64,000 bases of DNA from Bdellovibrionales bacterium Ga0074139 (lineage in GTDB: Bacteria > Bdellovibrionota > Bdellovibrionia > Bdellovibrionales > Bdellovibrionaceae). The translations under genes and the position numbers were made by a program. The DNA is taken from assembly GCA_001464795.1 (NCBI GenBank), contig LNEB01000011.1, forward strand, positions 1 to 64,000, in the 5' to 3' direction. The first letter of the stretch is position 1, and the number at the start of each line of letters is the position of its first letter. Below the pieces are notes generated by a model, which worked only from the letters and a program-made list of their open reading frames with translations, searched no databases and was not told the origin of the DNA. This document shows, piece after piece, positions 9,998 to 15,863 of this stretch.

Positions 9998-11254
9998 TTA
10001 AGAATAATGGGGAAGCTTCAAAGTGAAGCAGGTTTTTTCATAATTGCGATTTAAATAAAGATCCCCGTCGTGGGATCTTGCAAGACCTAAGGAAATACTT
10101 AATCCAAGGCCTGTTCCTTTACCAATTTTTTTTGTGGTGAAAAAAGGTTGCATAATTTTAGCTTCAATTTCTGGAGAAATTCCAGGGCCTGAATCAATGA
10201 TAGTAAAATAGATCATATTTTCATCGGGGTCTTTGAACAAAGACAGCTCAATTTCACCTGTTGGACCTGATTCCAAACAGGCATCCGCCGCGTTGTTAAT
10301 GAGGTTAACAAAAATTTGCATTATTTCATAACGCCGACAACTGCACAAAAGTTCATAAACAGGGGCTTCATAAATCAAACGAATGCCTTGCGATTTTAAC
10401 TTTTCATGGAAGTGATCCAAGGATTCAGCCAAAATGTTAACAATATCCTGTGGTGTTTTCGCTTCTTTATTTTCAGATCTTGAAAAATTAAGAAGACCAC
10501 TGACAATCAAAGAAATTCTTTTCGCAGCCGACATGGATCTTATTAGATAATGATCCATCCGGCTGGGATCTTTTTCTGAATCGTTATTTTCGTGCACAGA
10601 CTTTTCAATCATGTTTAAGTTGGAAATCAGAATCATCAAAGGATTGTTGATTTCATGGGCCACACCAGCTGACATCTCTCCTAGGGCCGACATTTTTGAA
10701 TTTTGCACAAGCCCCTTTGTCAGCTGAATCACTTGATCTCGGTATTGAAAATGAGTTCTAACCGCCACACCTAAAACAAACAAAGTGACAAAATTAACGG
10801 CATGAAAGTGCAGTAATTCGATTCCTGAAAGAGGGCTGTAAAAACTAGTAATAAGAGGTGCAAAAAAACTGATTAAAAACAATGCAACAGTGTCAGGCCA
10901 TGAAAGAGTCGTTACACCTAAAATGGCAATAAGTACGAAATAAGACCAGCGATGAAACAAAGACCAATCATTTAAAATAAGTAGCATCAGATAAAGTGCA
11001 AAGAACAAAACAATGACAAGATTTAAAAACCAACGAGTCCAATTAAAATTGATCTGTGGAATAAAGGAAACAATTAAACCAATAACAGATACAACTACTA
11101 TTAGAAATCGTCCTGTCAACCAATCGTGATGACCCGGAGAGACCTCTTTCATAAAAAAATAAAAAGTAAAACTAGATAGTGCACCAGCAATCAAAAGCAA
11201 CCGAGCTTTGAATAAATTTTGCCGATCAATAAGATCCTGGAACGCGTTAATCAT
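9998..11254 (-). CDS. Membrane sensor histidine kinase
   Basis: 418 aa. About six hydrophobic segments in residues 15-170 form a membrane sensor with no large periplasmic loop. Then come the dimerisation/phosphoacceptor domain (MSALGEMSAGVAHEINNPLMIL, His in the H-box) and the HATPase domain with N box (IFVNLINNAADACLE), G1 (DSGPGISPE) and G2 (GKGTGLGLSI). It phosphorylates an unknown partner regulator; no response regulator is adjacent. It diverges from the DUF481 gene. Confidence 0.93.
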   Translation of the reverse strand: MINAFQDLIDRQNLFKARLLLIAGALSSFTFYFFMKEVSPGHHDWLTGRFLIVVVSVIGLIVSFIPQINFNWTRWFLNLVIVLFFALYLMLLILNDWSLFHRWSYFVLIAILGVTTLSWPDTVALFLISFFAPLITSFYSPLSGIELLHFHAVNFVTLFVLGVAVRTHFQYRDQVIQLTKGLVQNSKMSALGEMSAGVAHEINNPLMILISNLNMIEKSVHENNDSEKDPSRMDHYLIRSMSAAKRISLIVSGLLNFSRSENKEAKTPQDIVNILAESLDHFHEKLKSQGIRLIYEAPVYELLCSCRRYEIMQIFVNLINNAADACLESGPTGEIELSLFKDPDENMIYFTIIDSGPGISPEIEAKIMQPFFTTKKIGKGTGLGLSISLGLARSHDGDLYLNRNYEKTCFTLKLPHYS

Positions 11255-11329
11255 TTCAGACTATTATTCAGCAATTGTATAAATTCACAACTACATTTAT
11301 TGTCCCTTCTTATTAAACAGGAGGACTTT

Positions 11330-12052
11330 TTGAAATTCATTCTTACAACTGCACTGACCCTTTTTGCTTGGTCACAAGCATTTGCACAAACTGAAAACTT
11401 GAACGCTTGGAAAAACGAATCTGAAGCTTCTGTGATTCAAATTTCTGGTAACTCAGAATCAGAAAGCTACTCGGCGAAACAAAAAACATCCTACACTTGG
11501 GATAAAAATATCTTCACAGCTTCAGGCAAATACATTCAAACAGAAGCAGGCGGACTTGAATCTGCTAGAAATTGGGAAGCCTTGGCTGCTTACGAAAGAA
11601 CCATTACCGAAATGCTAGCTGGTACAGCCTCTCATGGTGCTAAAAGTGATAAATTCGGTGGCTACGTTCAACGTGACAGTACAGATTTGGGATTAAAATA
11701 TTACATCGTAAAAAACGACGTTAGAACTTACTTCTTCGGCGCGGCCTACGGTGCGGCTCGAAATATTAAAGATGAAACAGGTCAGGAAAAGTACACAACC
11801 AACGGAAAAGCAAACTTTGAATTAACTGAGCAGTTGAACGAATCTGTGAAATTAGGTTTCAAAGTGAATTACACATCCAACTTAGAAGACGGGGATTTTT
11901 ACTTTGTTGAATACGAACCCTCGATCAGTGTTTCTATGACGAAGGTTCTATCTTTGAAGGTCTCTCAAAATACCAAGTACCAGAACAAGCCAGCACCTGG
12001 TTTGAAAAAAGAAGACCGTGCACTCACAACTGCTATCGTAGCTAGTTTCTAA
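11330..12052 (+). CDS. DUF481-family outer-membrane protein
   Basis: 240 aa with TTG start at 11330, placed 5 nt after AGGAGG and opening a clean signal peptide (KFILTTALTLFAWSQAFA before QTE). The mature part alternates beta strands as in the YdiY/DUF481 barrels (ENLNAWKNESEASVIQISGNSES; FGGYVQRDSTDLGLKYY; DFYFVEYEPSISVSM) and ends in Phe, a beta-barrel assembly signal. The family's function is not well established; a salt- or acid-induced pore is one suggestion. Earlier in-frame starts overlap the divergent kinase gene and are unlikely. Confidence 0.8.
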   Translation: MKFILTTALTLFAWSQAFAQTENLNAWKNESEASVIQISGNSESESYSAKQKTSYTWDKNIFTASGKYIQTEAGGLESARNWEALAAYERTITEMLAGTASHGAKSDKFGGYVQRDSTDLGLKYYIVKNDVRTYFFGAAYGAARNIKDETGQEKYTTNGKANFELTEQLNESVKLGFKVNYTSNLEDGDFYFVEYEPSISVSMTKVLSLKVSQNTKYQNKPAPGLKKEDRALTTAIVASF

Positions 12053-12084: not shown

Positions 12085-12855
12085 TTAGAACAACTGACCT
12101 TCAATAGATAAATAAACGAGTAATGAATTATCACCTGGATTTGTTGTGACTCCCATAGGGTAAGCAAGTCCAGGTACAAACTGCCAATCACCCACATCAT
12201 AGGCGTAACGAATACTAGGGCTGATCACAGTGCTTGATCCCCAAACAGCTTGCTTCGCACCGGTCGTTTCTTGCTCTTCACTACCAGCAAACTCCAACAT
12301 GAAATTCAGATTATTCGAAAATAAATAAACATTACTGACAGCCCAAAAATATTTGCTGTTATCAGCTTTTGCACCCGCCGTGTTTTTCGCATCAGGGGCA
12401 ATTCCAGCACCTAGGTTCCAGTGCTGCACCCACTTATCGGTAATATTCACCGATGTGATCAATGAGGCCTCATAGCCAGTTGTTGAGTTGCCAAAGCCCT
12501 TTTTGTAATCACCAGTGCCCGTTTGCAAACTGATACGGCCTGTGGTGACCAAAGTGTCATTGCGAAAGAATTCTTGTCGGTAGTTAAACTTAATATCACC
12601 CACACCCTGCTCATCTTTGGCAGCATCGATGTTGGAATAAGGGATTTCATACGAAAATTGATGTTTTTCGCTTCCCAGGGGGATTTCGTTAATAAATGTA
12701 TAACTCCAATCATCACCATCATCAGGCTTCTGATAAACATTAATAAACTGCACGACTCCAGGCTCTTGATTGTAAGCCTCCTCGACAAGAAATGAGTTAT
12801 CAGCAATTTGCGCTTGAGAAGTTAAAGCAGCAGTCAGTAACGAAAGTAATAGCAT
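12085..12855 (-). CDS. Outer-membrane beta-barrel protein, transporter-like
   Basis: 256 aa with signal peptide MLLLSLLTAALTSQAQ and a terminal Phe (SIEGQLF). Repeated amphipathic strands (NEIPLGSEKHQFSYEIPYS; VGDIKFNYRQEFF; TGRISLQTGTGDYKKGFGN) resemble the MetA-pathway/phenol-type outer-membrane transporter group. Substrate unknown. Its mRNA leader contains two mutually exclusive inverted repeats, one covering the AGGGAG ribosome binding site, so translation is probably regulated. It lies downstream of the OMP gene that ends at 13041, beyond a strong terminator. Confidence 0.75.
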   Translation of the reverse strand: MLLLSLLTAALTSQAQIADNSFLVEEAYNQEPGVVQFINVYQKPDDGDDWSYTFINEIPLGSEKHQFSYEIPYSNIDAAKDEQGVGDIKFNYRQEFFRNDTLVTTGRISLQTGTGDYKKGFGNSTTGYEASLITSVNITDKWVQHWNLGAGIAPDAKNTAGAKADNSKYFWAVSNVYLFSNNLNFMLEFAGSEEQETTGAKQAVWGSSTVISPSIRYAYDVGDWQFVPGLAYPMGVTTNPGDNSLLVYLSIEGQLF

Positions 12856-12865
12856 GGTGTGATCT

Positions 12866-12938
12866 CCCTTTTGATGCCTGGTCCTAGGATATAGGAAAAC
12901 GGGGGGGCATCAATAGGGTTTAAGATCAAGGACCAGGC
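12866..12938 (-). promoter_or_regulatory. Candidate riboswitch-like leader with alternative hairpins
   Basis: In the minus-strand RNA upstream of the 12855 start, CCCTATTGATGCC (12918-12906) pairs with GGCATCAAAAGGG (12878-12866), 12 of 13 positions, and covers the AGGG of the Shine-Dalgarno. A second, perfect 10-bp helix GCCTGGTCCT (12938-12929) / AGGACCAGGC (12885-12876) uses the same GGC at 12878-12876, so the two folds exclude each other. This is the sequestor/antisequestor layout of translational riboswitches or thermosensors. No known riboswitch class was recognised. Confidence 0.5.
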
Positions 12939-12980
12939 CTCTATTACATTAATTTTTATTTAGATGGGGATTTGAAAAAC

Positions 12981-13013
12981 AAAAACCCCCAAGCTTTCGC
13001 ATTGGGGGTTTTT
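12981..13013 (-). terminator. Strong intrinsic terminator of the OMP gene
   Basis: Perfect 12-bp stem AAAAACCCCCAA / TTGGGGGTTTTT with a 9-nt loop, 28 nt beyond the stop of the minus-strand OMP gene. On the minus strand the 3' arm ends in a T run. The A/T flanks would also let it work in reverse. Confidence 0.88.
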
Positions 13014-13040
13014 AGTAGATTCGTTATTTAAGACTTCGAA

Positions 13041-14225
13041 TTAGAAGTTATAAGTAACAGAAGCTTGACCGAAGATGTCTCCACCACTGTCAGTACCAAA
13101 GTTTCCATCAGTTCCAGTAGAAACTACTGTATCGATAGTTGCTTTACCCCATTTGAAGCCAGCACCTAATGCAGTAACAGTTCCATCAGCAACAGATGTA
13201 GAGCTTGAACCTTTAGACTTAGTTGAGCTTAATAGTGACAATGGTTGCTTCACAGACGCACGTAAAGTCATCCAAGAAGTCGCATCTGCTTCAACACCAA
13301 TGATAAGTGGAACATTCGTAGATTCAACTTTTGTGTTTGCTTCGTCATCTTCAGTCGTAGTCATAACAACTTCAGCACCGTAAAAGAAATCAACGCCATC
13401 TTTTTTGTGTGAATTGATAACACCAACATTTAAGATGTTCTTAGTAGCATCAACGATTTTACCACCACCAGTAGTTTTAACTTCGCCAGTGCGCATATCG
13501 TATCCACCGTAAAAATACATAGTGTCCATTAAATAACCACCAGAAGCTTTTAAACTACCAGTTGAGTTTACTTCCAAAGTAGAACCAGCAGAAATACCTA
13601 ATTGAGATGCAGCAGTGTTAGTTGTAGAAATTGCCGTTGTCTTAGTCTCTCCCATCAAACCAACTCTTAATTGAGCATCCCATACTCCGTTGTTAGCACC
13701 GAGCAAAAGACCCGCGATATTCTGTTCAACTTGACCAGAGTAAGCTGTGAAGTTTTGCGCAGTTTTGTAATCATTTCCTAGGTAAAATAAACCGGCACCC
13801 CAGCTGATATCGCCAGCTTTTGATGCATAAGTTAATTGAAGCGGATTTGACTGTGCATGGCCAGCTGTCAATGCTGTAGCAAGTGCCGATCTATCAGCAT
13901 TCAGATTTGTGTTGTTGCTTACAGCAGTAGTAATGTCAGAAACGAATTCTTGATAAGTTGTTGAACTTTTTCCTAGGTAAAGTGACCAAGCTGAATCTCC
14001 CATTTTGCGGATAAAACCAGCTTCTGCTTCTGTAGTAGCACCTGAATTACCACCGAACTCAACTGTAGCTGCTTCATAGTTTAAAGCTTGATCTGGTTCT
14101 TGTATGAATACCTCTTGAATGTCTACGATATGCTCAGAGTTTCCAAGAGCGTTCAAACGCGCCTTAGAAGCTTGTGCAGATACTGCTGCAAAAACTACAG
14201 CTGCGATCAACAAATGCTTTTTCAT
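13041..14225 (-). CDS. Outer-membrane beta-barrel protein, probable major OMP
   Basis: 394 aa. Signal peptide MKKHLLIAAVVFAAVSAQA, then SKARLNALGNSEHIVDIQEVF, a start often seen in predatory and myxobacterial barrel proteins, and a long Gly/Ser/Thr-rich beta-strand region ending in ASVTYNF with terminal Phe. Few rare residues, its own strong terminator and a long upstream region suggest high expression. Possibly a porin; no exact family can be assigned. A perfect palindrome (14246-14260) lies in its 5' leader. Confidence 0.75.
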   Translation of the reverse strand: MKKHLLIAAVVFAAVSAQASKARLNALGNSEHIVDIQEVFIQEPDQALNYEAATVEFGGNSGATTEAEAGFIRKMGDSAWSLYLGKSSTTYQEFVSDITTAVSNNTNLNADRSALATALTAGHAQSNPLQLTYASKAGDISWGAGLFYLGNDYKTAQNFTAYSGQVEQNIAGLLLGANNGVWDAQLRVGLMGETKTTAISTTNTAASQLGISAGSTLEVNSTGSLKASGGYLMDTMYFYGGYDMRTGEVKTTGGGKIVDATKNILNVGVINSHKKDGVDFFYGAEVVMTTTEDDEANTKVESTNVPLIIGVEADATSWMTLRASVKQPLSLLSSTKSKGSSSTSVADGTVTALGAGFKWGKATIDTVVSTGTDGNFGTDSGGDIFGQASVTYNF

Positions 14226-15302: not shown

Positions 15303-15863
15303 TTAATAGAGCTCGAAGAAGCTCATTTGCCGCTCGTCCTCGAGGGCATTGATCCAGCGAAGGCGGCGGTAGGGGTCATGGATAATTTCAAAGGGATCGA
15401 CAAAAGGATTGCGAAGGCTGGGTTGGGTTCGGTTCAAAATTAATCCAAGACTAGAGAATGCATAGTCTTCGGCACGATTACACATTCTAGCTTCCACAGG
15501 ATTTCGGTAAATGTATTTGTAGGCCATTTTAAAATGTTCGAAATGTTCTAAGGGTTCACAGGGAAGTGGTCTTTGAAAAAGTGAACGTTTGATTTCCAGC
15601 TGTTTTTTCCACTGCTCTTCAAGATCTAAAACCAATGAGTGTTCGTTGTAGGAATCGGTACTAAAAAGCAGGTGGATGTGATTGGACATCAAAACCCCCG
15701 CGTGCCAAGTCAACCCCGGATCTTCCCGTCGCTTTTGCACAAGATCCAGAGTTGTTAAAAAATCAATCCAGTGCCGACTGAGGTTATAATCGTACCATTT
15801 TGGGTGGACAATTTTTGTAGTGAAATGAAAGTATCTTTGTCTTTTAAATTTTTGCTGTTTCAT
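15303..15863 (-). CDS. REP-associated tyrosine transposase (RAYT), Y1 HUH family
   Basis: 186 aa. The HUH motif appears as NHIHLLFS and the catalytic Tyr lies in KMAYKYIYRNPVEARMC, matching the IS200-like Y1 fold. RAYTs nick single-stranded DNA at palindromic REP sequences and are usually domesticated single-copy genes. A second, different RAYT occurs at 27874. The ORF is intact. A perfect 16-bp palindrome lies 4 nt after its stop codon, and a two-gene HTH module follows on the same strand. Confidence 0.88.
   Translation of the reverse strand: MKQQKFKRQRYFHFTTKIVHPKWYDYNLSRHWIDFLTTLDLVQKRREDPGLTWHAGVLMSNHIHLLFSTDSYNEHSLVLDLEEQWKKQLEIKRSLFQRPLPCEPLEHFEHFKMAYKYIYRNPVEARMCNRAEDYAFSSLGLILNRTQPSLRNPFVDPFEIIHDPYRRLRWINALEDERQMSFFELY

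Follow-up and report, generated by a model that had tools for sequence, protein, structure and literature searches.

A beta-barrel gene and its leader

The window, a 64,000-nt stretch of a Bdellovibrionales contig, carries on its minus strand the gene for a putative outer-membrane beta-barrel protein, preceded by a PopA-type porin gene. A terminator separates the porin transcript from the leader of the beta-barrel gene, which is our subject here. The features of the locus are as follows:

13041-14225, terminator on the minus strand: PopA-type porin gene, upstream (NF053618 PopA match)
12980-13014, minus strand: intrinsic terminator of the porin gene (-21.7 kcal/mol, z -6.06), with a CCCCCAA/TTGGGGG stem and a T tract
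12943-12948, minus strand: possible -10 element TGTAAT, 5/6 to TATAAT, read from the sequence
12884-12910, minus strand: mini-ORF AUG-CCC-CCC-CGU-UUU-CCU-AUA-UCC-UAG (MPPRFPIS), read from the sequence
12864-12869, minus strand: Shine-Dalgarno (SD) AGGGAG, read from the sequence
12085-12855, minus strand: outer-membrane beta-barrel protein, 256 aa, ORF intact

Searches of Pfam, NCBIfam and PDB sequences with the gene product returned no match. Its AlphaFold2 model is a confident beta-barrel (pLDDT 89.6), to which Foldseek finds FapF closest (E 5.6e-10), followed by NanC and a COG4313 channel; the predicted fold thus supports the earlier description of the product as an outer-membrane protein. 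Homologues occur in Bdellovibrionota, Holophagaceae, Aromatoleum, Verrucomicrobia and others, and the protein carries a conserved motif, DNSF(L/I)VEEAYNQE. In the start regions of the Holophagaceae homologues (L048-L062), a short common stretch, about CTTGAATGGAG...ATGAG with the peptide MR(L/F)(S/N)I..., precedes the signal peptide; it may represent a conserved leader, or else the start may have been set wrongly.

On its other side, the beta-barrel gene converges with a DUF481 gene (window 11219-12052), with 32 bp between the stops. Near the locus lies an ORF resembling REP-associated tyrosine transposases, below the NCBIfam cut-off (window 15303-15863), a close relative of which adjoins the beta-barrel gene in the same-genus genome G002 (L045 3805-4383). 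In that genome the PopA and beta-barrel genes are divergent (L045 2245-2982), not tandem as here, which means that one of the two species has a rearranged locus.

Given the strong terminator just upstream, the leader should have a private promoter between the terminator and the start of the leader structure described below. A scan found no full sigma-70 promoter match, and reading the sequence revealed no FliA promoter motif. Since the scan gave no full match, we only infer the -10 assignment of TGTAAT (12948-12943), the best hexamer of this kind in an otherwise weak promoter, which would set the transcript start near 12940-12935, at the 5' arm of helix H1 described below.

Two overlapping helices and a longer hairpin

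The leader structure comprises two helices, H1 and H2, and extensions of the second:

12929-12938, minus strand: H1 5' arm, GCCUGGUCCU, same site read as GCCTGGTCCT
12876-12885, minus strand: H1 3' arm, AGGACCAGGC
12906-12918, minus strand: H2 5' arm (anti-SD), CCCUAUUGAUGCC, same site read as CCCTATTGATGCC
12866-12878, minus strand: H2 3' arm, GGCAUCAAAAGGG, read as GGCATCAAAAGGG, holding AGGG of the SD and the GGC common with H1
12923-12928, minus strand: H2 extension 5' arm UGAUCU, set off from H2 by a 4-nt bulge UAAA (12922-12919)
12860-12865, minus strand: H2 extension 3' arm AGAUCA, pairing with 12928-12923
12932-12939, minus strand: outer extension 5' arms GGC (12939-12937) and UGGU (12935-12932), overlapping the H1 5' arm
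12851-12858, minus strand: outer extension 3' arms ACCA (12858-12855, with the A of AUG) and GCU (12853-12851)

The original prediction described a perfect 10-bp helix and a 12-pair helix, and direct reading of the minus strand yields both: all 10 pairs form between 12938-12929 and 12885-12876 in H1, and 12 of 13 between 12918-12906 and 12878-12866 in H2 (mismatch 12914/12870). The GGC common to the two (12878-12876) and the pairing of H2 over AGGG of the SD (12869-12866) were likewise read correctly. What had been missed is the extent of the stable fold, which runs past H2 into a 25-pair interrupted hairpin enclosing both SD and AUG, with UGGU paired to ACCA and GGC to GCU in its outer part. 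The actual alternative to H1 is therefore a hairpin longer than earlier described, and because its outer arms occupy bases of the H1 5' arm, the conflict between the two folds is wider than the common GGC. The claim that only one helix can form holds for the full-length hairpins, which are mutually exclusive and non-random; H1 and H2 as first described clash at 3 nt only, and nine H2 pairs (12918-12909 with 12875-12866) are in principle compatible with H1 as a pseudoknot, so that a route of strand exchange between the folds exists.

The chance expectation was taken from 358 kb of the same genome (the window and further stretches), in which 231 leaders were sampled with a simple gene caller of our own, so a few leader starts will be wrong. 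The score required two strong helices with 3 nt or more in common, one of them lying over the SD. The leader ranks first of the 231 on this dual-helix score (-23.1, the runner-up reaching -15.7), a rank that is descriptive and no blind test, as the score was set after the finding had been seen. None of 2000 dinucleotide shuffles reached it. Regardless of genes, the pair is the strongest of overlapping inverted repeats in the 358 kb; the runner-up (-20.0) is next to an integrase gene, and the third scores -16.4. RNAfold, the check proposed for the leader, gave -36.2 kcal/mol (z -2.96); the fold energy alone is less remarkable (14th of 231 by z, in the top 6%).

At L126 (G000:C8) 11743-11811, a single arm complements two downstream arms, as GCCGTTACTGACCACC-N17-GGTGGTCAGTAAC-N10-CAGTAACGGC. 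This arrangement precedes a 148-aa ORF, behind which come excisionase-like and integrase ORFs, and it may be an att, oriT or regulatory site belonging to an integrated element.

Relatives and the origin of the repeats

The nearest homologues of the beta-barrel protein are 57-60% identical to it, among them those of G002 and of G032, the latter with PopA, terminator and beta-barrel gene in the same order. Neither helix pair is present in the 49 other homologous leaders scored, including both of these; the best other switch score (-16.6) comes from Geothrix, in a leader with an uncertain start call, and scores of 0 to -11.8 were obtained for the closest relatives. A BLAST search of 141 genomes in the order yielded no homologous leader, comparison by DNA with 60 relatives gave chance matches of 15-28 nt only, and the sole counterpart elsewhere in the element's own genome was one 15-nt chance match. 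Covariance models of either fold (R1 and R2) detected no leader homologue in the family (66 genomes searched). Their only other match (R1, L135, E 0.003 per genome) falls within a glnE-like ORF, in antisense orientation, and an unfiltered model search of the homologous loci produced weak matches only, away from the leaders. At the gathering cut-off Rfam had no match in the window, and its weak matches in the leader region fall far below that cut-off, a result on which we reject a known RNA class and which agrees with the original prediction, which had recognized none.

Conservation in relatives, named beforehand as the refuting test, is thus absent at the homologous genes, the nearest of which share only ~60% protein identity, a divergence that places covariation beyond measurement. 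As far as such comparisons reach, the absence argues against a widespread riboswitch and not against a young element.

Restriction to one species also fits a neutral origin, in which short-range replication template switching left two inverted repeats that have no selected switching function. Template switching is documented as a source of RNA hairpins (PMC8794818), and 12885-12860 can be read as three upstream blocks copied in reverse-complement form, in the order 12938-12929, 12918-12906 and 12928-12923, the jump being marked by a GGC microhomology. In all, 25 of its 26 bases find an upstream partner in few blocks, and only 6 of 2000 shuffles attain the self-complementary coverage. This history would need two jumps, however, and no ancestral sequence shows the event (the leader of syntenic G032 is shorter, lacks the helices and is too diverged for reconstructing it). 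Also against it, the overlap of the helices falls exactly on SD and AUG, and the pair is the strongest of the 358 kb. We regard a purely neutral origin as less likely than not, yet as the most serious rival of the reading preferred below. Template-switch origin and regulatory function are in any case compatible, since one concerns origin and the other function.

Folding order and possible control of translation

Computed energies favour the long hairpin. In transcripts of 91-101 nt the minimum-free-energy (MFE) hairpin over SD and AUG has -34.1 kcal/mol versus about -21 for H1, and enforcing H1 makes the ensemble 12.0 kcal/mol weaker at 30 °C. The order of formation is the reverse: because transcription finishes both H1 arms 10 nt ahead of the H2 arm that carries the SD, H1 is predicted to fold first, and in a length series of folds it is best for 3' ends at 12876-12870, with H2 overtaking at 12866. 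By prediction, the growing RNA thus adopts an early fold and only later a more stable one that hides the SD, the order expected of translational control by delayed folding. On a direct nested path that ignores pseudoknot strand exchange, the barrier from H1 to the full hairpin is ~20 kcal/mol, an upper-side figure since the model bars pseudoknots. The original prediction that H1 frees the SD stands in part, as the computed ensemble with H1 has the SD 0.33 unpaired at 30 °C. Opening the footprint of the ribosome-binding site (RBS) takes 16.0 kcal/mol, where the median leader takes 10.9; this cost ranks 38th of 231, so that other leaders cost more.

These figures bear on the two regulators first envisaged. 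An RNA thermometer, in which the SD hairpin would melt as temperature rises, is suggested by the position of the SD in a hairpin, but the computed unpaired probability of the SD is 0.003 at 30 °C, 0.006 at 42 °C and 0.03 at 70 °C, and about 0.03 or less across 5-70 °C. The computed series speaks against a thermometer, to which we give virtually no credence. For a translational riboswitch that would bind a ligand through an aptamer in the 43-nt loop closed by H1, the anti-SD/anti-anti-SD layout is suggestive. Against it, the H1 loop has little structure, neither Rfam nor sequence and model searches of the family or order supplied a match or a conserved aptamer or leader, and a ligand would have to pay ~12 kcal/mol at equilibrium, a gap large enough to argue against equilibrium switching. 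We consider such a riboswitch very unlikely. Among other candidates, transcription attenuation was rejected, as neither H1 nor H2 is followed by a T tract, and the arms appear too far apart for a DNA operator.

Control could instead come from a ribosome or from a factor acting in trans. The mini-ORF begins inside the H2 5' arm and its stop overlaps the H1 3' arm, so a ribosome on this proline-rich stretch (12910-12884) could hold the H2 5' arm open, as in leader-peptide attenuation. The mini-ORF lacks an SD and is probably untranslated, its 8 codons could arise by chance, and no homologous leader offers a comparison; we view this mode of control as exceedingly unlikely. A protein such as CsrA, or an sRNA, might also bind the leader and use the hairpins as a platform. 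CsrA is encoded in the genome, and GGA motifs at 12884-12882 and 12867-12865 are spaced by ~17 nt, with the latter falling in the SD, a spacing and overlap that resemble CsrA targets. Both motifs are nevertheless paired in the MFE structure, GGA is common as a motif and no sRNA was identified, and control by a trans-acting factor therefore seems improbable to us.

The reading we prefer, at a probability of roughly 0.4, is a species-specific control in which the long hairpin represses translation in cis and the metastable H1, formed early, postpones this repression. The RNA would begin at the 5' edge of H1, if the putative -10 element sets its start, and H1 would fold first. While H1 lasts, the RBS of the nascent mRNA would be at least partly open and ribosomes could load; rearrangement into the 25-pair hairpin, more stable by ~12 kcal/mol, would then hide SD and AUG and lower translation of the beta-barrel protein. 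Expression would be confined to nascent mRNA, or else increased by whatever factor preserves H1. Cases in which a transient fold of the leader times translation have been described (PMC6733600). The stricter proposal of a purely kinetic on-then-off timer on an outer-membrane protein message, working without ligand, antisense RNA or protein, we think unlikely.

If the element works, a predatory lineage with few described cis-regulatory RNAs would provide, in one of its surface proteins, a simple natural case of translation governed by folding order and not by a ligand. If neutral, it would be a clean example of riboswitch-like geometry arising from replication errors, and a caution for motif searches in single genomes.

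Among known systems, the leader of the MS2 maturation gene (PMC6733600) is similar in that its start region is open in a transient fold before a more stable inhibitory fold forms, a sequence of events proposed here from energies and order only; MS2, however, has a phage RNA cloverleaf with no sequence relation to our leader, for which the kinetics are predicted. The hok and aapA3 type I toxin mRNAs (PMC6733600) also pass from an early metastable hairpin to a stable SD-hiding fold, but they use long-range 5'-3' pairing and antisense RNA where the present pairing is local and the gene encodes a beta-barrel outer-membrane protein, and the early fold of type I toxin leaders has the opposite sign (PMC6733600). 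Translational riboswitches of the anti-SD/anti-anti-SD kind share mutually exclusive helices over the SD and differ in having a conserved aptamer, a ligand and homologues. The merRNA of Bdellovibrio, which contains a c-di-GMP riboswitch (PMC3627812), is a structured RNA from the same bacterial group; unlike the leader described here, it is non-coding and has no regulated ORF, and Rfam detects no c-di-GMP match in this window.
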